Shown here in pieces: positions 34,532 through 46,346 of a stretch of 64,000 nt of DNA. Made by a program: the position numbers and the translations under genes. The notes under the pieces are model-generated. The model was not told the DNA's origin. It did not search any database and saw nothing but the letters and a program-made list of their open reading frames with translations. Every line of letters begins with the position of its first letter. Position 1 is the stretch's first letter. Origin of the DNA: Shinella sp. WSJ-2 (GTDB lineage Bacteria; Pseudomonadota; Alphaproteobacteria; Rhizobiales; Rhizobiaceae); contig NZ_QWBU01000004.1 of assembly GCF_003432075.1 (NCBI RefSeq), forward strand, positions 372,001 to 436,000. The letters are read 5' to 3'.

Positions 34532-36175
34532 TCAGATCCCTCCCCCGCCATCCGGCCCGCTTGCCTCCGCGACACCGGCCCGACGCGCATTGATCACGGC
34601 ATCGATATAGGTGCGGGGCTGCTGCAGGTTGCGCACGGTCTCTTCCATGTAGTGCATCGCCGGGCCGGCCTTGATGGTGAGCGTCAGGGTCAGCGCAATC
34701 AGCAGCATGACCGGCGCCATTTCCATGACGAGCACCCGCGGCACCGTGCCCTCCATCGAGGCCCAGAAGGTACGGATGCCGGCACGCGTCATTGAGATCA
34801 GCGCGGCAAGGCCCGACAGAATGAGCAGGCCGACAATCCACCAGACGGAGGCCGGAACCGGCTGGTCCGCACTGGCGCCCATGCCGATCATGCCCGTCAG
34901 CATGGCGAATTTCGCGACGAAGCCGGAAAGCGGCGGCAGGCCCGACAGGAGGATGCCGCAGGCCGCGAAGCAGGTGCCGAGCACGGCGATGGTTCCCGGC
35001 ATGGTCACGCCGATCTCGACCTCCTGCTCCTCCTCGTCCGCATCGCCATAGGCTTCCATGGTGACGGCGAGAACCGAGGCGCCGGCGTCCTGACCTCGCT
35101 CAACAAGCTCGATCAGCATGAAGAAGGCGCCGATCGTCAGTGTGGAGCTGACCATATAGAAGAGCGCTCCGGCCGTGACCTCGCCATTGCTGAGGCCGAG
35201 CACCGCCAGAAGCGTGCCGGAGGAGACGAGCACCGAATAACTCGCCAGGCGGCCGAGCGCCTGCGAGGCGAGCACGCCGATCGTGCCGAAGGCGATCGTC
35301 GCCATGCCGCCATAGAGCAGCACGTTGAGGCCGAGGCCGGCGGATTCGCCCTGTCCGAAGACGAGCAGCGAGAGGCGCAGGATCACATAGATGCCGACCT
35401 TGCTCATGATGGCGAAGATGCCGGCGACCGGGGCGACTGCCGCGCTATAGGCGCCGGGCAGCCAGAAGTTCAGCGGCCACATGCCGGCCTTGATGAGGAA
35501 GACGACGCCGAGAATGGCCGCCCCCGCCTCGAGCAGCATGCGCCGCTCGCCCTCAATTTCGCCAATGCGTAGCGCGAGGTCGGCCATGTTGAGCGTGCCC
35601 GCCGAACCATAGATCGCGCTGACGCCGATCAGGAAGCAGAGCGCGGCGGCAAGATTGACGGCGATGTATTGCAGGCCCGCCTTGACGCGCATCGGGCCGG
35701 AGCCGTGCATCAGAAGTCCATAGGAGGCGGCGAGCATCACCTCGAAGAAGACGAAGAGATTGAAGAGGTCACCCGTCAGGAAGGCGCCGTTCAACCCCAT
35801 CAGCAGGAACTGGAACAGCGAGTGAAAATGCGCGCCGGCGGCGTGCCAGCGGGCGAGCGCGTAGACCAGTGCCGGAATGGCAAGGATCGCGGCGAGCACC
35901 AGCATCAATGCCGAGAGCCGGTCGACGACCAGCACGATGCCGAAGGGAGCCGGCCAGTTGCCGAGGAGATAGACGCCGTCGAAAGCTCCTGCGCCGCCGC
36001 CACCGTTGGCCAACCGGAAGAGGTTGATGGCGACGGCGGCGAGCGCCAGCGTTGAGACGACGCTGATCATGGCCTTGACGACGCGCTGGCGCTCGTCGAA
36101 GAACAGGAGCAGCGCGCCCGCGATCAGCGGAATGACAATGGGCGCTATGATGAGGTGTTGCTGCCAGCCGCTCAT
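34532..36175 (-). CDS. phaD: Multisubunit cation/proton antiporter subunit D (Pha/Mrp/Mnh)
   Basis: A 547-residue NuoM/N-like antiporter subunit with about 14 membrane segments. The conserved proton-channel region is visible as GDLFNLFVFFEVMLAASYGLLMHG, AAILGVVFLIKAGMWPLNFWLPGAYSAAVAPVAGIFAIMSKVGIYVILR. An acidic insertion between late segments (YGDADEEEQEVEIGV) is unusual in a membrane subunit and lies in a loop. It begins in an ATGA overlap with phaC. The complex exchanges Na+ or K+ for protons at alkaline pH. Confidence 0.95.
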   Translation of the reverse strand: MSGWQQHLIIAPIVIPLIAGALLLFFDERQRVVKAMISVVSTLALAAVAINLFRLANGGGGAGAFDGVYLLGNWPAPFGIVLVVDRLSALMLVLAAILAIPALVYALARWHAAGAHFHSLFQFLLMGLNGAFLTGDLFNLFVFFEVMLAASYGLLMHGSGPMRVKAGLQYIAVNLAAALCFLIGVSAIYGSAGTLNMADLALRIGEIEGERRMLLEAGAAILGVVFLIKAGMWPLNFWLPGAYSAAVAPVAGIFAIMSKVGIYVILRLSLLVFGQGESAGLGLNVLLYGGMATIAFGTIGVLASQALGRLASYSVLVSSGTLLAVLGLSNGEVTAGALFYMVSSTLTIGAFFMLIELVERGQDAGASVLAVTMEAYGDADEEEQEVEIGVTMPGTIAVLGTCFAACGILLSGLPPLSGFVAKFAMLTGMIGMGASADQPVPASVWWIVGLLILSGLAALISMTRAGIRTFWASMEGTVPRVLVMEMAPVMLLIALTLTLTIKAGPAMHYMEETVRNLQQPRTYIDAVINARRAGVAEASGPDGGGGI

Positions 36176-36510
36176 TTCGGCTGCTCCCTGCCGTCGACAT
36201 GGTCGGTGCCGGTCAGCCCGCGGGCAGCGAGCAGCACGACGAGGAACAGCGCCGTCGTCGCAAAGCCGATGACGATCGCCGTCAGCACCAGCGCCTGCGG
36301 CACTGGGTCCGTCAGCGTCGAGACGTCGACGCCTTCGCCAAGCAGCGGCGCGGCGTTGGATTTCACGCCGCCGACGCCGAAGATGAAGAGATTGACGGCA
36401 TAGGAAAGCAGCGACAGGCCGATGATGACCTGGTAGGTGCGCGGGCGCAGGATCAGCCAGACGCCCGAGCCGGTCATTATGCCGATACCGATTGCGAGAA
36501 CGAGTTCCAT
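36172..36510 (-). CDS. phaC: Multisubunit cation/proton antiporter subunit C (Pha/Mrp/Mnh)
   Basis: A 112-residue NuoK-like subunit with three membrane segments: MELVLAIGIGIMTGSGVWLIL, YQVIIGLSLLSYAVNLFIFGVG and PVPQALVLTAIVIGFATTALFLVVLL. DPVPQALVLTAIVI is the MrpC signature. Its ATG shares a base with the phaAB stop (TGATG), and its end overlaps phaD as ATGA. Confidence 0.95.
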   Translation of the reverse strand: MELVLAIGIGIMTGSGVWLILRPRTYQVIIGLSLLSYAVNLFIFGVGGVKSNAAPLLGEGVDVSTLTDPVPQALVLTAIVIGFATTALFLVVLLAARGLTGTDHVDGREQPK

Positions 36511-39428
36511 CAGTTTTCCTCCGCCTTGGGGGCGTCGAGACCGCGGACCCGATGCATGCGTACGGATTGGTGGGCGAGCGCGATGAGGATCAGCACCGTC
36601 GCGCCGACGACGAGCGAAAAGACGCCGAGATCGAAGAGCAGCGCGCTAGCGGCCGGCACCTTGCCGATGAACGGCACCTCTATGTATTGCGAATGGGTGG
36701 TCAGGAACGGATAGCCGAGCAGCCACGCACCCATGCCGGTGGCCGCCGCCATGATAAGGCCGAAGCCCATCCAGCGGAGCGGCAGGATGCGCAGCCGATC
36801 CTCCGCCCAGCGCACGCCGCCCGCCAGATATTGCAGCAGGAAGGCGATTGCCATGGTGATGCCGGCAGCAAAACCGCCGCCCGGCAGGTCATGGCCACGC
36901 AGGAAGAGATAGACCGCGAAGGTCGCAATGACCGGGAACATCCACTGCATGATGACCGAGGGTACGAGCAGGTAGTCGCGCACCGTATCGCCCGCCGAAC
37001 GCTCGGGGCGCTCCGCATCGAAAGCGTTCTGGATGCGCTGCTGCTCGGGTTTTTCGATACTATCAGGCGCCGGGCGGAAACGGCGCAGCAGTGCAAAGAC
37101 CGTCAGCGCCACGATGGCCAGCACCGCGATCTCACCCATTGTGTCAAAGCCACGGAAATCAACGAGGATGACGTTGACGACATTGCGCCCGCCGCCTTCG
37201 CTATAGGCCTTGTCGAGGAAGTAGCTGGCGATCGCATCCGGCACCGGCTGTGTCATGATGGCGTAGGAAAACAGGAACATGCCGAAGCCGCAGGAAATCG
37301 CGAGCAGGAAGTCGCGGAAGCGACGGCTGCGCGCAGAAAACGACACGGAGTTATCGACCTTCTCCGAACGCTTCGGTAGCCAGCGCAGGCCAAGGAGCAG
37401 GAGAACCGTCGTGACGATCTCGACGACAAGCTGGGTGATGGCAAGGTCGGGCGCCGACAGCCAGACGAAGGTGATGCAGGTCGTGATACCGGCACCGCCA
37501 AGCAGGACCAGGGCCGCAAGGCGGTGATACTTCGCCTGATAGGCCGCGCCCAGCGCACAGAACGCGCCGATAGCCCAGACGGCGGCGAAGATCGGATCGA
37601 CATCCTTGAAGGCCAGCGGCTTCGGCGAGAAGCCCGCAAGATAGAGCGAGACGGCTCCGGCCAGGAAGCCCGCGGCGGCGACGAGGCGCAGCTGCGGCTG
37701 GAGGTGGCGCGTGCCGAGATTGCTTTCCAGCCAGCGCGCCCATTTCCAGGAGACGGTGACGAGGACGCGTTCGAAGATGCGCTGGCCGCCGAGATGCCGG
37801 AAGAGCGGCGGCCCGTTGTCGCATTTGGCGAGATAGTCCTTCATCACGACATAGAGCGCCGCGCCCCCGACGAGCGCGATGAGGCTCATGATCAGCGGCG
37901 TATTGATGCCGTGCCAGATGGCAAGGCTGTATTCCGGCGTACGGTCGCCGAGCACCGAAATGACGGCGGAATGCAGGAACGGGCCTATCGACAGGCTCGG
38001 AATGATGCCGACGACGAGGCAGGCCAGCACGAGGAACTCGATCGGGAAACGCATCCAGTGCGGCGGCTCGTGCGGCTTGGGCTTCGGCAGATCGGTCGGC
38101 GGCGGACCGAAGAAGACCATGTGGATGAAGCGCAGCGAATAGGCGACGGAGAACGCGCCGGCCAGTGTGGCGACATAGGGCAGGATGCGGTCGAGCACGG
38201 AATCGGCATGCGTCTCCACGGCTTCTGCGAAGAACATTTCCTTGGAAATGAAGCCGTTGAGCAGTGGCACGCCGGCCATCGCGGCACTCGCCACCATCGC
38301 GAGCGTTCCCGTTATCGGCAGGTATTTGAGAAGCCCGCTCAATCGTCGCATATCGCGTGTGCCGGTCTCGTGGTCGATGATGCCGGCGGCCATGAAGAGC
38401 GAGGCCTTGAACGTTGCATGGTTCATCATGTGGAAGATCGCCGCGACCGCCGCGAGTGGGCTGCCAAGGCTGAGCAGCGTGGTGATAAGGCCGAGGTGGC
38501 TGATCGTCGAATAGGCGAGCAAGCCCTTCAGGTCCTGCTGGAACATCGCGAAATAGGCACCGAGGATCAGCGTGCTGATGCCGGCGATGCCGACCAGCAT
38601 GAACCATTCATACGTGCCCGACAGCGCCGGCCAGAACCGCACCAGCAGGAAGACGCCGGCCTTCACCATGGTCGCGGAATGCAGGTAGGCAGAGACGGGT
38701 GTGGGGGCCGCCATGGCGTTCGGCAGCCAGAAATGGAACGGCACCTGGGCGCTTTTGGTCAGCGCGCCGATGAGGATGAGCACGAGCGCCGTAAGGTAGA
38801 GCGGATGCGCCTTGATCAGGTCACCCGAGGCCAGCACGACATCGAGATCGTAGCTGCCGACGATATGGCCGAGCACCAGCAGGCCGGCGAGCAGGCAGAA
38901 GCCGCCGATGCCGGTGATGGTGAGCGCCATGCGCGCGCCGTCACGGGCGGCGGCATTGTTGTGCCAGTAGCTGATCAGCAGGAACGAGAAGATGCTGGTG
39001 AGTTCCCAGAACACCGACAGCAGGATAATGTTGCCCGAGAGCACGATGCCGAGCATCGAGCCCATGAAGGCAAGCAGAAACGAGAAGAAGCGCGGAACCG
39101 GATCCTCCTCGGACATGTAGTAGCGCGCATAGAGAACGACGAGGAAACCGATGCCTGTGACGAGCATCGCAAAGAGCCAGGCGAACCCATCCATTCGCAG
39201 CGTCACATTCAGCCCGAGCTGCGGCAGCCATTCGAGGTCGAGTCGCACCTTGCCGCCATCGCGCACCGAGGGATAGAGCACCGCCGTCAGCACGAGGGCG
39301 ACGAAGGTCACGGCGCCCGCCATACGTGCGGCAAGGACGCGCGAATCGGTCCTCAGCAGAACGACCGCAGCCAGGCTTCCCACGAATGGAAGGCAGACCA
39401 GCAGGACGAGAATCATTTCACCTGTCAT
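36510..39428 (-). CDS. phaAB: Multisubunit cation/proton antiporter fused subunits A and B (Pha/Mrp/Mnh)
   Basis: A 972-residue protein joining MrpA and MrpB. The first roughly 770 residues are the NuoL-like MrpA part with the proton-path elements SVFWELTSIFSFLLISYWHNN, ALTKSAQVPFHFWLPNAMAAPTPVSAYLHSATMVKAGVFLL (split across helices 7-8), MMNHATFKASLFMAAGIIDHE and the MrpA C-terminal domain. From about residue 800 the MrpB part follows (LLVPSVIMQWMFPVIATFAVYLFLRGHDLPGGGFAAGI). Fused A-B is the usual arrangement of rhizobial pha operons, known for K+ efflux and pH adaptation. An ATG 12 bases into the frame, after AGGTGA, is an alternative start. It leads the operon. Confidence 0.95.
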   Translation of the reverse strand: MTGEMILVLLVCLPFVGSLAAVVLLRTDSRVLAARMAGAVTFVALVLTAVLYPSVRDGGKVRLDLEWLPQLGLNVTLRMDGFAWLFAMLVTGIGFLVVLYARYYMSEEDPVPRFFSFLLAFMGSMLGIVLSGNIILLSVFWELTSIFSFLLISYWHNNAAARDGARMALTITGIGGFCLLAGLLVLGHIVGSYDLDVVLASGDLIKAHPLYLTALVLILIGALTKSAQVPFHFWLPNAMAAPTPVSAYLHSATMVKAGVFLLVRFWPALSGTYEWFMLVGIAGISTLILGAYFAMFQQDLKGLLAYSTISHLGLITTLLSLGSPLAAVAAIFHMMNHATFKASLFMAAGIIDHETGTRDMRRLSGLLKYLPITGTLAMVASAAMAGVPLLNGFISKEMFFAEAVETHADSVLDRILPYVATLAGAFSVAYSLRFIHMVFFGPPPTDLPKPKPHEPPHWMRFPIEFLVLACLVVGIIPSLSIGPFLHSAVISVLGDRTPEYSLAIWHGINTPLIMSLIALVGGAALYVVMKDYLAKCDNGPPLFRHLGGQRIFERVLVTVSWKWARWLESNLGTRHLQPQLRLVAAAGFLAGAVSLYLAGFSPKPLAFKDVDPIFAAVWAIGAFCALGAAYQAKYHRLAALVLLGGAGITTCITFVWLSAPDLAITQLVVEIVTTVLLLLGLRWLPKRSEKVDNSVSFSARSRRFRDFLLAISCGFGMFLFSYAIMTQPVPDAIASYFLDKAYSEGGGRNVVNVILVDFRGFDTMGEIAVLAIVALTVFALLRRFRPAPDSIEKPEQQRIQNAFDAERPERSAGDTVRDYLLVPSVIMQWMFPVIATFAVYLFLRGHDLPGGGFAAGITMAIAFLLQYLAGGVRWAEDRLRILPLRWMGFGLIMAAATGMGAWLLGYPFLTTHSQYIEVPFIGKVPAASALLFDLGVFSLVVGATVLILIALAHQSVRMHRVRGLDAPKAEEN

Positions 39429-40628: not shown

Positions 40629-41675
40629 TCAGAGTGTCGCCAGGATTCTGTTGGCGATCGCGCCCGCATAGGCGTCGCGCTGGGTGACCTTGTTCTCCAG
40701 CGCGGCGATGACGTTTTCGGAGAAATCCACGCCGTAGAGGTCAAACATCGAATTCAGCCCACCGGGCGTGAAGACGTTGATCTCCAGGATCTTGTCGCCG
40801 ACGATATCAAGGCCGACGAGAAACATGCCGTCCTCCACCAGTTTCGGCCGCACCATCTCGGCAATCGCCAGGATTTCCGGTGTTATCTCCACCTTCACCG
40901 CTGTTCCGGCGGCGTGGATGTTCGAACGCACCTCGCCCTTGGCTGGCACGCGGCGGATTGCGGCATAGGTGCCGTCCCTCTCCAGCGGACGGCCGTTCAT
41001 CAGAAAGAGGCGAATGTCGCCCTCGGTCGCCGCCGCCAGATAGTTCTGCGCGATCAGGTAGCCCTCGCCGCTGACCGCTTCGAAAATCTGGTTCAGGTTG
41101 GCCTCGTCGGGCGAGCCGATCTTGAAGACATTCTTGCCGCCCGAGCCCTGGAGAGGCTTCATGATCACGCCCTCCTTGTGCAGGTCGATGAAGCCGCGGA
41201 TCTCCTCGATGCTCTTGGAGATCAGCGTCTGCGGCCGGACAGCCTGCGGGAATCCCTGAAAATAGAGTTTGTTTTGCGCAAGCGAGAGACCATCGGGATC
41301 GTTGACGACGAGCGTGCCGCGCGCGGCGGCAAGTCGCCCGAACATCGCCCCGACATGCGCCGCCCAGGGGCGTCCGTCCGCGTCGAGCGACGGATCGTTG
41401 CGCAGGAAGAGCACATCGACCGCGGAGACATCCATCGTCTCGACCGTCGCTTCGTCGCCCTGGAGGGCAGCGTGGAAACTCTCGGCCTTCTTATAGCGTT
41501 TGCCGGGCAGCACGCGGCCGCGCACCGAAAGGCTGTCATCGGCCCGCAGCACGAAATCGCCGGGTGTCAGGTAGCAAATGTCGTGGCCGCGCGCGAGTGC
41601 GGCCATGGCAAGAGACGTCGTGGTGAAGGTCGGGGTCTCGTCTTCGATCGAATTGACGAAAAAGGCGATACGCAT
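40629..41675 (-). CDS. GshB-like ATP-grasp ligase
   Basis: A 348-residue protein of the prokaryotic glutathione synthetase superfamily. The N-terminal segment MRIAFFVNSIEDETPTFTTTSLAMAALARGHDICYLTP and DVLFLRNDP are the GSHase substrate domain. The ATP-grasp part has EGVIMKPLQGSGGKNVFKI, EGDIRLFLMNGRPLER, GEVRSNIHAAGTA, FLVGLDIVGDKILEINVFTPGG. These hold the ATP lysine and the Mg-binding acidic and Asn residues. The ATG has GAGGAG upstream; the longer frame reaches into the metallopeptidase gene. It is not necessarily the housekeeping GshB: it ends an operon with a QEGLA metallopeptidase and an N-formylglutamate amidohydrolase, suggesting a dedicated peptide or amide ligation. Confidence 0.87.
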   Translation of the reverse strand: MRIAFFVNSIEDETPTFTTTSLAMAALARGHDICYLTPGDFVLRADDSLSVRGRVLPGKRYKKAESFHAALQGDEATVETMDVSAVDVLFLRNDPSLDADGRPWAAHVGAMFGRLAAARGTLVVNDPDGLSLAQNKLYFQGFPQAVRPQTLISKSIEEIRGFIDLHKEGVIMKPLQGSGGKNVFKIGSPDEANLNQIFEAVSGEGYLIAQNYLAAATEGDIRLFLMNGRPLERDGTYAAIRRVPAKGEVRSNIHAAGTAVKVEITPEILAIAEMVRPKLVEDGMFLVGLDIVGDKILEINVFTPGGLNSMFDLYGVDFSENVIAALENKVTQRDAYAGAIANRILATL

Positions 41676-41686
41676 GGTAGCTCTCC

Positions 41687-43585
41687 TCAAGCTTCGAGCA
41701 TGGCAAGGGGGGTCAGTCCGGCTCGGGCGCGCTCCAGCCTTGCACGCCCGCGTTCGGTTTCCAGACACAGCGGACGAAGGACCGGTGCCTTCAACAGGCC
41801 GCGGGCACCCAGCTCCTCCATCACACCGAAATCTGCGGCGGAAATTTTGCCCATCCAGAACGGATCAAGCGCGCCGCCGCCCTTCAGGTGACTGAGCAGC
41901 GAGAGCAATCCGCGCAGATAGATCGCGTCCTTCGCCAGCCCGCCGCCGCGAAAAACGCGGAGTAGCAGGCCGAACGCGGTTTCCGCATCGATATCGTAGC
42001 GCCCCGTCAGAAACCGGAAACTCTCCACGAAGGATGCGCCCGCCAGCATCAGATTACATCCGACGACGCGGGCCGCGAGCAGCCGCAACCGTTCGGGCGT
42101 AAAGCCTCCGGCCAGGAACTCGGCGAAGACCGCCAACCCCTCCTGCATGCCCTCGTAGCCGGCAAGGCCGGTGCGGAATACGCGCAGCCCCTGCGCCGAA
42201 CCATTGAAATAGGTGAGAAGGTGCACGCCGACCTCATGGCTGAGAAGGGCATCGACGCGATGGCGCATCATGCGCGTGCGGCGAGAAATGAGGAGCCGCG
42301 GTCCGGACACCAGAAGGCCGGGTGGCACGTCATCGCGCAGCTCGATCGCCGCGTCGAAACCATCATGGCGCCGCTGGTAATCTGACATCATCGTGCGCGC
42401 CCGATGCTCGACGAAAAAACAGTCGACCACCTCGTCGTCGTCAGGTTTGAGCGCCGGCACGCGCCGCGCCTCCCCGGCCCCATCGAGAACTGCCTGCGCT
42501 GCGTTTAGCAGCGAGGGCTCGACGGGCCCATAGAGGGCGCGGCCGAATTCGACGAAGCGCGCCTTCTCCCGGTGGCCGATGAGGGTGAGCTGCAAGTCGA
42601 GTTCCTGCTGCTTTTCACGATAGATTTGGTGAAGGACGGGGTCTTCGAGGCGGTCGAGCGAAATGGCATAGAGCCGGCGCTTTTCCCGCTCCACCAGCAG
42701 GCTCAGTGGCCGATAGAGAAAGCGCGGCGGCTTGTCATAACGGTTCGCCTTGAACTCCTGCCAGGCCGCACTCGCATTGATCGGCGTCACGCAGAGCAGG
42801 AAATCGAAACTGGAGGCGACGTCGTCCATGCCCCGATCGGCGCGCTCCACCGCGTCGATAAAGGCCTTTCGGCCAAACGCGCGGTAGGTGACGGGCTTGG
42901 GAAAACCATCGGCCTCGAGAAAGGCGGCGACGGCACGCAGGCCGGCATCGAGGAAGTTGTCAATGAGGCGCTCGCGCAGGTCCGGATAGGTCTCCTCCGA
43001 TCCGGTGACGCGATAGATCGGCGCAAAACGCAGGGTGACGAGCGGCAGGCGCAATTTCAGAAGTTCCGGCCGGGCGCAGGGATCCTCCTGCGCCGCACAG
43101 AGATCGATATGCGGCGTGCGGAACCGCGCTTCGAAGGCCTTCACCGCCGCCTCGAAGGCCTTCACCGCGCGGTCAGCCGCCAAGCCGCGTGTCGCCGAAA
43201 GGGTCACTTCGAAGGGCTGCAGAAAGGGCGCGTCATCGCAGAGCAGCCGGTCGCGCTCGAGTTCGTCGATATCGATCAGCAGGAACGTGCCGAATGTCTT
43301 GCGCAGGACGGCGGCGATCGGTGCGATCAGCTCGACGGCGTCCTCGATACTGGTCGTGAGAAGATAGGAGGCATTGGCGCTCGCCACCTCGCGCGCCACG
43401 ACATGCCGCTCGGGATCTCCGACATGAACGCAGAGGAAAGGCTGCGGCCGGTCGATATGCAAACGCCCGCCATCGAACTCACGGCGCACTGGCTTTCCGG
43501 CCTCCAGCGCCGCGATGACGTCCTCGACAAGGGTCTTTTCCTTGTTTTTCGTGCGCGGCTTGCGCGCCGCTCTCGCTGGGGTCAT
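41687..43585 (-). CDS. QEGLA-motif metallopeptidase-like protein (DUF1704/MATCAP family)
   Basis: A 632-residue soluble protein. The C-terminal third holds a gluzincin-type active site: HEVGVH at residues 450-455 and the third ligand in MQEGLAVFAEF about 30 residues later. Bacterial members are annotated as flavohemoglobin expression-modulating QEGLA proteins. The same domain in animals (MATCAP/KIAA0895) is a tubulin tyrosine carboxypeptidase, so a peptidase removing a C-terminal residue is plausible. The N-terminal half (PFLCVHVGDPERHVVAREVASANASYLL) is a separate domain of unknown role. It is joined to the amidohydrolase by an ATGA overlap and to the GshB-like ligase by an 11-base gap. The zinc motif is complete, so it is probably an active enzyme. 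Confidence 0.87.
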   Translation of the reverse strand: MTPARAARKPRTKNKEKTLVEDVIAALEAGKPVRREFDGGRLHIDRPQPFLCVHVGDPERHVVAREVASANASYLLTTSIEDAVELIAPIAAVLRKTFGTFLLIDIDELERDRLLCDDAPFLQPFEVTLSATRGLAADRAVKAFEAAVKAFEARFRTPHIDLCAAQEDPCARPELLKLRLPLVTLRFAPIYRVTGSEETYPDLRERLIDNFLDAGLRAVAAFLEADGFPKPVTYRAFGRKAFIDAVERADRGMDDVASSFDFLLCVTPINASAAWQEFKANRYDKPPRFLYRPLSLLVEREKRRLYAISLDRLEDPVLHQIYREKQQELDLQLTLIGHREKARFVEFGRALYGPVEPSLLNAAQAVLDGAGEARRVPALKPDDDEVVDCFFVEHRARTMMSDYQRRHDGFDAAIELRDDVPPGLLVSGPRLLISRRTRMMRHRVDALLSHEVGVHLLTYFNGSAQGLRVFRTGLAGYEGMQEGLAVFAEFLAGGFTPERLRLLAARVVGCNLMLAGASFVESFRFLTGRYDIDAETAFGLLLRVFRGGGLAKDAIYLRGLLSLLSHLKGGGALDPFWMGKISAADFGVMEELGARGLLKAPVLRPLCLETERGRARLERARAGLTPLAMLEA

Positions 43586-44394
43586 GCGACCTCCCGCAAT
43601 GCGCTTTCAAGCACAGGCACCGAGGAGGCTATGAGAGAGCGGAGTGCGGAGATCGCCTGCCAGTCCGGCACGCCGGTCCACTCGTCCATGAAAATCTTCT
43701 TGAACTCGACGGCGATGGCGCAGCCGCTTGCCGGAAAGCGCTCATGGATGAACCGCGTCTGCTCGCCGCGGCCCTGGAAAGCGACGTTCTCGCGTACATC
43801 GAGCCGACGGCCGAGGAAATCGTAGTCGGCGCAGAAATCCATGAAAGCATCGACGACGGGCGCCCAGCGGGCGCGGTCCATGGAGATCGTGCCGATATTG
43901 ATATCAGGCGCATCCGCCGCCGCCGTCGGCGTGCTTGCGGCTCCATCACGGCGATGGTTGTAGCTATGGATATCGAGCACGACGAAGGCGCCATATTGCG
44001 CCTCCACACCGCGCAGATAATTTTCCAGCATGCCGTAATAGGCATCGTGCAGCGCCAGGCTTTCGGAGAGATCGGCGTCGGACAAAGCCTCGCGCCAGAC
44101 CTTCAGGCCCCAAGCCTGCTCCGGCCGCTGATAGACGGCGGCATCCCGCGCGCGGTTAAGATCGATCTCGAAGCGCGAGCGCTGGAAGACGATACGGTTG
44201 GCGAGGTCATGGATGATTTCGGCGGTAAAGGGATCTTCTTCGCGCAACCGCCCGTCCTCGTGGAGCGCCATTCTGGAAAGAAGGTTTTCCCTGACAGCAT
44301 GACCGTTGTGGATGGCGGTTCCGATGATCGGCGAGGCCCCGCGCGAGGTCATCCACCACACATGATCGCCGGTAAATTCGCTATCGTCCAACAT
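43582..44394 (-). CDS. N-formylglutamate amidohydrolase family protein
   Basis: A 270-residue zinc hydrolase of the HutG/FGase family. Visible motifs are PIIGTAIHNGHAVREN, FEIDLNRARDAAVY, VVLDIHSYNHRR and a late acid/Lys region CAIAVEFKKIFMDEWTG, which supply the metal and substrate residues. Classical members hydrolyse N-formyl-L-glutamate in histidine degradation, but no hut genes are nearby. Its operon partners are a carboxypeptidase-like protein and an ATP-grasp ligase, so it may act on another N-acyl or pyroglutamyl-like amide. It is the first gene of the operon. Confidence 0.87.
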   Translation of the reverse strand: MLDDSEFTGDHVWWMTSRGASPIIGTAIHNGHAVRENLLSRMALHEDGRLREEDPFTAEIIHDLANRIVFQRSRFEIDLNRARDAAVYQRPEQAWGLKVWREALSDADLSESLALHDAYYGMLENYLRGVEAQYGAFVVLDIHSYNHRRDGAASTPTAAADAPDINIGTISMDRARWAPVVDAFMDFCADYDFLGRRLDVRENVAFQGRGEQTRFIHERFPASGCAIAVEFKKIFMDEWTGVPDWQAISALRSLIASSVPVLESALREVA

Positions 44395-44536
44395 GCGTCG
44401 CCGTGCTCCAGTCCCAGATGCGGCAGGAATGCCTCACGATCATCTTCGTTCCAAAGGCCGCAAGAAGCTTGCCCCTTGGAGGGAGACGAAAAGCGCTCTA
44501 TCTGAACGGACGACGCGTTTTTCGGCGAGGACCCCT

Positions 44537-44902
44537 TTGCGCACGATCTACATGATGGCGGGCCTGTTCATGACGGCCCTCGGCATCGTCGGCGCTTTCC
44601 TGCCGCTCCTGCCGACGACGCCGTTCTTGCTCGTCGCGGTCTGGTGCTTTTCCCGCTCCTCGCCGCGTCTCGAACAATGGCTGCTGACCCACAAGACTCT
44701 TGGCCCGCCGCTGACGAACTGGCGTCGCGAGGGTGCGATTTCCGGTCGCGCCAAGATCACCGCCGTCAGCCTGATCGTCGTAAGCTACGCCTTCTTCTTC
44801 TATCGCACCAAGCCTTCGGTTCTGATGGCGGTCATCGTCGGCCTCGTGCTGTCCTGCAGCGCGCTGTTCATCCTCACCCGCCCGTTGCCGAAAGGAAAAT
44901 GA
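44537..44902 (+). CDS. YbaN/DUF454 inner-membrane protein
   Basis: About 121 residues with the YbaN core: a first membrane segment IYMMAGLFMTALGIVGAFLPLLPTTPFLLVAVWCFSRSSPRLEQWLL (the PLLPTTPFLL and CFSRSSPR stretches are the family signature) and two further segments. Function is unknown. The start is uncertain: I use a TTG with GAGG 6 bases upstream because it matches the length of E. coli YbaN and leaves room for a divergent promoter. Open frame continues left to an ATG at 44393 that would overlap the divergent amidohydrolase start. The photolyase follows after 4 bases, so the two are one operon. Confidence 0.8.
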   Translation: MRTIYMMAGLFMTALGIVGAFLPLLPTTPFLLVAVWCFSRSSPRLEQWLLTHKTLGPPLTNWRREGAISGRAKITAVSLIVVSYAFFFYRTKPSVLMAVIVGLVLSCSALFILTRPLPKGK

Positions 44903-44906
44903 GATA

Positions 44907-46346
44907 ATGACGGAAAAAAGCAATCCGCCCGTCATCGTCTGGTTCCGCCGCGACCTGCGCACGCACGACAATGCCGCCCTTTCCGCCGCCGCCGAGAGCG
45001 GCCGGCCCGTCGTAGCGCTCTATATCCGCGAAGCGGCCGACGGGACTGGCCCGCTCGGCGCCGCGCAAGCCTGGTGGCTGCACCATTCGCTGACGTCGCT
45101 CGGCAAGGCCCTCAAGGCGCTGGGAGCGCCGCTGATCCTACGCGGCGGCGAAGCGGGCAAGGTTCTGGACGATCTGATTGCGGAAACCGGCGCTGGGACG
45201 ATCTACTGGAACCGGCGGTACGACCCCGCCGGCATCAGGATCGATACGGACATCAAGGCATCGCTGAAGGCGCGGGGTCTCACCGCGAAGAGTTTTGCGG
45301 GCGAGTTGCTGCATGACCCGACCCGCCTGTTGACAGGCGAGAAGAAGCCCTACCGCGTCTATACACCCTTCTGGCGTGCCTTCGAGCGGGACGGCGAGCC
45401 GCATGAGCCGGTCGATGCGCCGGAAAAACTTGCCACTCTGCATCCGGCACCGAAATCCGAAACGCTCGATGACTGGAACTTGCTGCCCAGCAAGCCGGAC
45501 TGGGCGGCCACATTCGGCGAGGTCTGGACGCCGGGCGAGGAGGCCGCACTGGAGCGCCTCGAGACCTTCGCCGACGGCGTTATCGACGGTTATCAGACAA
45601 AACGCGACCATCCCTCCATTGATGCTACCTCCCTGCTGTCGCCGCATCTGGCGATGGGCGAAATCTCGCCGGCGCGGGTCTGGCACGCAACGCGCGGCCT
45701 GAAGGCGCCGACGGACGACGTGATCCATTTCCGGAAGGAGTTGGTCTGGCGGGAATTCTGCCACCACCTGCATTTTCACTTTCCGGCGCTGGCGGAGAAG
45801 AACTGGAACGATCGCTTTGACGCCTTTCCGTGGGAAGGCAGCAAAAAGGAGTTCGAGGCCTGGACGCGTGGCGAAACCGGCTATCCCATCGTTGATGCGG
45901 GCATGCGGCAGCTCTGGCAACACGGCTTCATGCACAATCGGGTGCGCATGATCACCGCCTCCTTCCTCATCAAACACCTGATGATCGACTGGCGGCGCGG
46001 CGAACGATGGTTTCGCGATACGCTCGTCGATGCGGATGCCGCGTCGAATGCGGCGAACTGGCAATGGGTTGCCGGTTCCGGCGCCGATGCCTCGCCCTTT
46101 TTCCGTATCTTCAATCCGATCCTGCAGGGCGAAAAATTCGATCCTGACGGCACCTATGTGCGCCGCTTCGTGCCGGAACTGGAAAAGCTGGATGCCACCT
46201 TCATCCACAAACCCTTCGACGCGCCCGAAAGCGCGCTGAAAAAGGCAGGCGTGGTGCTCGGAGAAACCTATCCCAGGCCGCTCGTTGACCATGCCAAGGC
46301 ACGCGAACGGGCACTTGGCGCCTATAAGGCGCTGAAGGACGATTAA
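44907..46346 (+). CDS. phrB: Deoxyribodipyrimidine photolyase (class I, PhrB type)
   Basis: A 479-residue flavoenzyme that uses blue light to split cyclobutane pyrimidine dimers in DNA. The N-terminal antenna-binding Rossmann part begins VIVWFRRDLRTHDNAAL. The C-terminal FAD-binding domain has LVWREFCHHLHFHFP, WTRGETGYPIVDAGMRQLWQHGFMHNRVRM, KHLMIDWRRGERWFRDTLVDADAASNAANWQWVAGSG and SPFFRIFNP, the most conserved photolyase block, including Trp residues of the electron chain. AGGAAAATG precedes the ATG. Its stop overlaps the convergent phnN stop by 3 bases. Confidence 0.96.
   Translation: MTEKSNPPVIVWFRRDLRTHDNAALSAAAESGRPVVALYIREAADGTGPLGAAQAWWLHHSLTSLGKALKALGAPLILRGGEAGKVLDDLIAETGAGTIYWNRRYDPAGIRIDTDIKASLKARGLTAKSFAGELLHDPTRLLTGEKKPYRVYTPFWRAFERDGEPHEPVDAPEKLATLHPAPKSETLDDWNLLPSKPDWAATFGEVWTPGEEAALERLETFADGVIDGYQTKRDHPSIDATSLLSPHLAMGEISPARVWHATRGLKAPTDDVIHFRKELVWREFCHHLHFHFPALAEKNWNDRFDAFPWEGSKKEFEAWTRGETGYPIVDAGMRQLWQHGFMHNRVRMITASFLIKHLMIDWRRGERWFRDTLVDADAASNAANWQWVAGSGADASPFFRIFNPILQGEKFDPDGTYVRRFVPELEKLDATFIHKPFDAPESALKKAGVVLGETYPRPLVDHAKARERALGAYKALKDD

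Follow-up and report, generated by a model that had tools for sequence, protein, structure and literature searches.

The DNA analysed is a stretch of 64,000 nucleotides from Shinella sp. WSJ-2 (contig NZ_QWBU01000004.1, positions 372,001 to 436,000), referred to below as the window, and the subject of this study is a cassette of three genes on its minus strand at positions 40629-44394. The order on that strand is a gene for a member of the N-formylglutamate-amidohydrolase family (FGase), a gene for a MATCAP-family metallopeptidase and a gene for a GshB-like ATP-grasp ligase. The FGase (43582..44394) has 270 amino acids and matched PF05013 with 81.6 bits against a cut-off of 28.9, while the MATCAP protein (41687..43585) has 632 residues in two domains and matched PF08014 at residues 276-619 with 284.3 bits (gathering cut-off 27). 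The ligase (40629..41675) has 348 residues, contains both PF02951 and PF02955, and is a member of subfamily NF009110 (PRK12458) with 478.9 bits against a cut-off of 408. Based on the sequence, the FGase and MATCAP genes appear to be translationally coupled through a four-nucleotide ATGA overlap (43582..43585), and the MATCAP and ligase genes are separated by 11 nucleotides (41676..41686) which include a ribosome-binding-like GGAGAG. The ligase gene begins with ATG at 41675 and stops at 40629; a longer version starting from GTG at 41768 would run into the MATCAP gene, and this GTG is not likely to be the start. A preliminary description of the window had assigned the three genes to one coupled operon, and its coordinates and families agree with Pfam and NCBIfam. 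Among the matches listed, in which very near records may be left out, the closest named relative is Shinella curvata (MATCAP identity 89%).

The distribution of the cassette was determined in a set of 397 Pseudomonadota genomes, 53 of which carried PF08014 at a total of 61 places. Fifty-seven of these places were examined, those left out being G339, G370, G200 and G101:C132, and a MATCAP was considered to be of the long form when the motif HExG(V/I)H was preceded by about 445 or more residues. NF009110 exceeded its cut-off in 12 of the 397 genomes, at 14 places which all scored at least 436 bits, the next-best match having 240.9 bits. Among the places examined, the 12 genomes with a long-form MATCAP were exactly the 12 with NF009110 (one of the proteins, in L053, is truncated near the contig start). 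MATCAP adjoins the ligase at all 14 NF009110 places, and an FGase or FGase-like domain is present within the examined stretch at 12, the exceptions being L052 and L053. For the short MATCAPs, of about 384-549 residues by first start, tblastn showed neither a ligase nor an FGase as a partner, the stretch covered being only 1.5 kb per side for 30 of them; one short-MATCAP locus (L026) gave a weak ATP-grasp match. The MATCAP of L055 has 702 residues from its first start but was counted as short because of its short-type motif HEALVH and the lack of an N-domain match.

In a scan of a species collection, the best 80 of 560 relatives, picked by similarity to the peptidase and hence favouring the long-MATCAP cassette type, had the ligase in the locus in 80/80 cases and the FGase in 77/80. 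Among the three loci without FGase, L129 starts at MATCAP, and the genome of L114 has another complete cassette (L155). Judging by record titles, which may be wrong for metagenome-assembled genomes (MAGs), cassettes span about ten phyla. They occur in Rhizobiales, other Alphaproteobacteria, Gammaproteobacteria, Deltaproteobacteria, Planctomycetota, Bacteroidota (Pontibacter), Poribacteria, Gemmatimonadota, Verrucomicrobia, Kiritimatiellae, Calditrichota, Acidobacteria, Campylobacterota and an Actinomycetes MAG. A further set was selected by the ligase only from 246 Planctomycetota genomes, 14 of which matched at E<=1e-90 and 12 over the cut-off; two of the 14 (G404, G406) were already in use and the other 12 gave 16 loci, with MATCAP in 14 and FGase in nine. 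For 70 of the 80 loci and for two subsets, the correlations between the distance matrices of these three proteins were 0.855-0.955, to which shared species descent adds. The co-occurrence check proposed with the preliminary description found the genes together far beyond close relatives, ligase and long-form MATCAP in the same 12/397 Pseudomonadota genomes and cassettes in about ten phyla by record title. The arrangement is not a matter of chance in view of these results, and a trio so tightly co-inherited almost certainly runs one pathway.

The ligase is homologous to GshB (1gsa) along most of its sequence (126.7 bits by phmmer) and has ATP-grasp positions in common with it, 38 conserved positions being common to 33 cassette ligases and 15 GshB-scoring proteins when aligned. 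It differs from GshB in subfamily, in motif and in being found where the tested gshA families were not. The invariant differences include T->F302 and T->G305, which convert the NVTSPTG-like signature of the GshB-scoring proteins into NVF(S/T)PGG; in the window this reads NVFTPGG (40758..40778, minus strand). The ligase scored under both gshB equivalog cut-offs (TIGR01380, 196.2 against 299.05 bits; NF003573, 212 against 272 bits). It was likewise below the cut-off of RimK-type TIGR00768 (70.2 against 143.4 bits), its partner being of the MATCAP metallopeptidase family and not an aspartic protease, and far below that of the ribosomal-peptide ATP-grasp family TIGR04187, to which it had a weak match (18.7 against 350 bits). 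With PF02955, scores were 158-194 bits for cassette-type ligases of known loci and 226-275 bits for true-GshB-like proteins. Shinella sp. WSJ-2 has another PF02955 protein (G000:C12) which, at 243.4 bits, lies within the range of other GshB-like proteins, and its genome also encodes a GCS2 (GshA-family) protein on C22. Both GshA families, PF04107 and PF04262, were missing in seven of 20 cassette genomes (G406, G407, G408, G410, G411, G412 and G416), which is not proof since several are drafts; G416 has a GshB-scoring protein nevertheless. The preliminary description had named a sole glutathione synthetase as the finding that would overturn it. A role as the sole or main glutathione synthetase was rejected on the basis of the equivalog scores, the second GshB-scoring protein and the gshA-like gene in this genome, and the cassette genomes in which neither of the two gshA families was found. 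The label "glutathione synthetase" is suggested to be misleading for this ligase, with consequences for automatic pathway reconstruction, particularly in lineages where gshA was not found.

The catalytic domain of the MATCAP protein (about residues 263-629; 41699..42799) contains an HEVGVH zinc motif (H450, E451 and H455; 42221..42238) and a QEGLA motif (42131..42145) in which E482 is the candidate third zinc ligand. The HExxxH...E site is intact, as had been described, and its residues are invariant in 40/40 aligned relatives, so that the alignment lends no support to an inactive site. Structures were compared using an AlphaFold2 model of the window protein (mean pLDDT 89.8), the catalytic domain of which matched human MATCAP 7z6s by VIA-align with Z 24.8 over 292 residues at 3.1 A. 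The kinship to tubulin C-terminal peptidases proposed earlier is therefore apparent in the modelled fold and in the zinc motif. The characterised MATCAP/TMCP enzymes (KIAA0895L and KIAA0895, of PF08014) are described in PMC10499314 as carboxypeptidases of tubulin tails which also remove polyglutamate. The cassette peptidase resembles them in the fold of its C-terminal domain, the HExxxH and downstream E ligands, and an R...RG...KD..Y segment in the alignment, but it is bacterial, has an extra FGase-like N-terminal domain, and shares its operon with genes for a ligase and an amidohydrolase. The cassette thus concerns bacterial members of a peptidase family in which, as far as found, those that have been characterised act by cutting tubulin tails. 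The "flavohemoglobin expression-modulating" label (TIGR02421), which the preliminary description had treated with reserve, does apply by its cut-off but only barely (341.5 against 338.65 bits).

The candidate ligand and catalytic residues of the FGase, H29, E52/E53, R81, D141, H143 and E230, are all present and are invariant in 30/30 aligned cassette FGases, conservation being the basis for the roles suggested. This protein is the lowest-scoring of five PF05013 matches in the genome, the other four scoring higher. HutG, the N-formylglutamate deformylase of histidine use, has the PF05013 family in common with it but was rejected as an identification, the FGase falling far under the TIGR02017 cut-off (20.5 against 278.75 bits) while the four higher-scoring PF05013 proteins are encoded elsewhere. 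In L047 (7968-10920, on G089:C24), a long MATCAP is paired with an AstE/AspA-type amidohydrolase replacing the FGase and has no cassette ligase nearby; the neighbours of this pair are a Na/H exchanger with TrkA_N, a CitMHS/TrkA_C transporter and a CNNM protein.

An FGase/zinc-exopeptidase-like fold was also recognized in the N-terminal domain of the MATCAP protein (about residues 37-226; 42908..43477). By hhalign this domain matched the cassette FGases with a probability of 88% (E 2.9e-6, 129 columns), the ligase control giving 0.1%, and in the model residues 37-226 matched FGase 2q7s by VIA-align with Z 12.5 over 171 residues at 3.4 A. At the position of FGase H143 none of 40 aligned sequences has H, and at that of E230 17/40 have E; the H29/E52 part falls outside the hhalign alignment. 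The domain has lost FGase residues and is probably a pseudoenzyme domain. Going by the hhalign result, the fold match and the residue loss, the peptidase bears a degenerate version of an FGase-like domain next to a gene for an intact FGase. Six Pseudomonadota loci (L040, L043-L046 and L050) encode FGase::MATCAP as a single protein of ~660-700 residues, with the ligase upstream, and in one Planctomycetota locus (L168) the two are likewise one protein, of 674 residues. The H, D-H-S and E-(V/I)-K-K segments of the FGase are kept in five of the six Pseudomonadota fusions and lost in L040. As far as the open-licence literature searched shows, the degenerate twin domain is a new observation, and it offers a handle on how both hydrolases cooperate.

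The annotated neighbours of the cassettes include CorA, MscS, MgtE, a CNNM protein, a sodium/proton exchanger with TrkA_N, and an AA_permease-family transporter which we take to be SLC12-like. Outside the rhizobial and related group, CorA was found within 8 kb of the cassette in 8/30 loci, where 0.08 was expected from the number of family genes per genome, and MscS also in 8/30, where 0.38 was expected; one or the other lies within this distance in 11 of the 30. In L111 an MscS gene overlaps the last ligase gene by four nucleotides, and in L121 MgtE is situated between MATCAP and the ligase. MgtE follows the ligase in L130, and in L048 does so beyond a DUF2062 gene; MgtE-like genes were also seen, as single sightings outside the statistics, near L160 and L170 of the Planctomycetota set. 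The link of the cassette to ion and channel genes is new as far as searches of the open-licence literature show. The preliminary description had mentioned neither this link nor the degenerate domain and the FGase::MATCAP fusion. Its MscS and magnesium-transporter component points to a concrete physiological setting, namely osmotic downshock and Mg2+ balance.

Based on these results, the cassette is tentatively proposed, with a probability of roughly 0.42, to be a co-inherited three-enzyme module which assembles a peptide-like compound, distinct from glutathione, and remodels it, probably for ionic or osmotic adaptation. By its family, and with many GshB-conserved positions kept, the ligase would activate a carboxylate with ATP and join an amino acid to it. 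The MATCAP-type metallocarboxypeptidase, with its conserved active-site residues, is predicted to cleave off one residue at the C-terminus. Hydrolysis of an N-acyl or glutamyl amide bond is predicted for the FGase, whose active-site residues are also conserved, or for the AstE/AspA-type amidohydrolase that replaces it in one locus. The degenerate N-terminal domain of MATCAP, kin to the intact fused FGase domain from which it may have arisen, would probably position the substrate or dock the active FGase. The probable role of the module in ionic or osmotic adaptation, at least outside the rhizobial group, is deduced from the statistical clustering with MscS and CorA there and the MgtE genes sometimes seen. 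The cycle of attachment, trimming and recycling put forward in the preliminary description agrees with one amide-forming and two hydrolysing families being co-inherited, whereas its two versions, C-terminal tagging and a small peptide, are both compatible with these families. Of the two, a small glutamyl-type peptide is given slight preference, since no recurrent substrate protein was seen next to the cassette among the ORF clusters viewed, and since small molecules are the substrates of two of the three families. A protein tag is nearly as likely in view of the characterised MATCAPs, which work on tubulin tails and take off polyglutamate.

Several observations weigh against the proposed module for ionic or osmotic adaptation. 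No CorA or MscS gene lies within 8 kb of the cassette in the five genomes of the rhizobial and related group, to which Shinella sp. WSJ-2 itself belongs, and the Mrp antiporter neighbour of the window is common only to Shinella curvata L085 among the loci compared. The choice of CorA and MscS was made after the neighbourhoods had been seen, and both families were for this reason retested in the 16 ligase-selected Planctomycetota loci. There MscS was replicated (3/16 against 0.149 expected, P 5e-4) but CorA was weak (1/16 against 0.045 expected, P 0.04), and the two families are not independent, as they cluster with each other. The completeness of the trio also varies: FGase is missing in seven of the 16 Planctomycetota loci, where a contig end truncates the cassette in just two (L161 and L166), L052 has none within the examined stretch, and L154, L169 and L172 have solitary cassette ligases. 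As to the degenerate domain, the fold match is unspecific, procarboxypeptidase 7eqx of the same broad fold tying at Z 12.0, and Foldseek alone gave just E 0.06 against 2q7s. The fused domain of L040 is without the FGase residues, and no separate FGase is present in the 17 kb of that locus. Finally, the characterised relatives of MATCAP act on protein tails, which is in favour of protein tagging.

Reversible C-terminal tagging of a protein is the strongest of the alternatives, though on balance doubtful. The ligase would add a residue to a host protein, MATCAP would remove it, and the FGase would clear the released or N-blocked product. Apart from the tubulin enzymes (PMC10499314) and the fold match to human MATCAP with Z 24.8, this is favoured by known pairs of an ATP-grasp protein and a protease, RimK/RimB and RloC/RloA (PMC12239564), and by rlo-like genes adjoining the ligase in L051 and L053. 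Against it, neither the top 45 clusters of open reading frames (ORFs) of at least 90 codons nor the small ORFs beside the cassettes include a recurrent substrate gene, and no common C-terminal tail was seen by eye on 17 linked CorA, MscS, MgtE and permease proteins. The ligase, moreover, is of the GshB type and under the RimK cut-off, and a cycle of this kind would leave the FGase without an obvious task.

Ligase-plus-protease modules are already known as a kind, represented by RimK/RimB and Rlo. RimK adds a residue to the C-terminus of a ribosomal protein. In the RimK/RimB system of Pseudomonas (with RimA), which glutamylates the ribosome, an ATP-grasp ligase and a protease act on one modification (PMC12239564, PMC11957791, PMC10092738), as they might here; the cassette differs in having a GshB-type ligase, a metallocarboxypeptidase where RimB is an aspartic protease, and an extra amidohydrolase. 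The rloABC genes of Pseudomonas aeruginosa (retropepsin, inactive transglutaminase-7TM and ATP-grasp) share this logic, and PMC12239564 describes the Rlo proteases as needed for hypo-osmotic survival. Retropepsin-like, 7TM-transglutaminase and ATP-grasp genes resembling rloABC lie directly beside the cassette ligase in the two Pseudomonadota loci mentioned, L051 and L053. The Rlo proteases belong to another family and are secreted, and the rlo-like ATP-grasp protein of L051 is of a different family, PF14397. No paper on the trio of ligase, MATCAP and FGase was found in the open-licence literature searched, and an earlier prediction in Iyer et al. 2009 is possible. That study reportedly predicted ATP-grasp amidoligase/peptidase systems in which amidoligases were tied to peptidases by gene neighbourhood.

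It is also conceivable, but unlikely, that the three genes form a real module whose ionic or osmotic link is that of a bystander, the cassette residing in variable stress regions which also collect CorA, MscS and MgtE genes. The missing CorA/MscS link in the rhizobial group is in keeping with this, as is the clustering of CorA and MscS away from the cassette, for example at G574:C95. The overlap of MscS with the last ligase in L111, MgtE within the operon in L121, the recurrence of the link in several phyla and the replication of MscS speak against this.

By analogy with the tubulin tyrosination cycle, in which TTL adds a residue to the tubulin C-terminus, the ligase and MATCAP might form a bacterial write-erase pair acting on a channel, transporter or other conserved protein, and thereby tune turgor and ion balance; this is regarded as improbable. 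The ligase would add the C-terminal residue and MATCAP remove it, while the FGase and its degenerate twin would recycle or present the product. If this were true, the eukaryotic detyrosinase would descend from the bacterial partner of an ATP-grasp ligase.

The chances are poorer still for a second glutathione-type pathway, in which the ligase would turn gamma-glutamyl peptides into an analogue of glutathione, to be recycled by the hydrolases. The 38 conserved positions common to GshB-scoring proteins and cassette ligases, and the title "glutathione synthetase" of NF009110, are consistent with it. They are set against the scores under both gshB equivalog cut-offs, the GshB-scoring and GshA-family proteins elsewhere in the genome, the absence of both GshA families from seven of 20 cassette genomes, and the change of NVTSPTG to NVF(S/T)PGG.

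That the cassette matures a peptide made by ribosomes, or another natural product, is the least credible alternative: ATP-grasp ligases and peptidases are common in natural-product clusters and ligases are tandem in five loci, but no exporter or tailoring enzyme stood out among the neighbour clusters viewed, the TIGR04187 score is 18.7 bits against a cut-off of 350, and ORFs of 25-89 codons within 1.5 kb of the cassette recur in at most four loci, all of Pontibacter (31 non-rhizobial loci; 37 clusters, those beyond the best eight having at most three loci each), although a precursor gene could lie at another place in the genome. A known anti-phage defence system was rejected as an identification, none of the three proteins having a PADLOC match at E<=0.001 (2023 library).

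Two or three NF009110-type ligases occur in tandem in one operon in L108, L111, L125 and L159, and L164 also has two; L125 carries two MATCAP genes as well. Judging by the tandem arrangement, such loci may attach more than a single residue. One of the solitary NF009110 ligases, in L154 (G406:C20), is located near MscS and a sigma-54 regulator, with no MATCAP or FGase match in the 14 kb examined. In a Rhizobium plasmid (L110:7152-11654), MATCAP and the ligase each match as two overlapping pieces, which could represent a decaying copy or sequencing errors.

In the window, the cassette is followed downstream by Mrp-type antiporter genes (34532-39428), which were rejected as a general cassette partner because that neighbourhood is kept only in L085 among the loci compared. 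On the other side it is adjoined by a divergent DUF454 gene (44393-44902) and a DNA photolyase gene (44907-46346), again kept only in L085 among the loci compared. Eight Pseudomonadota loci (L039, L044-L046, L048 and L050-L052) have a LysR gene of one kind close to the cassette, probably a local regulator. Weaker matches to the same kind were obtained in three rhizobial loci, that of L101 being about equal to the weakest of the eight.

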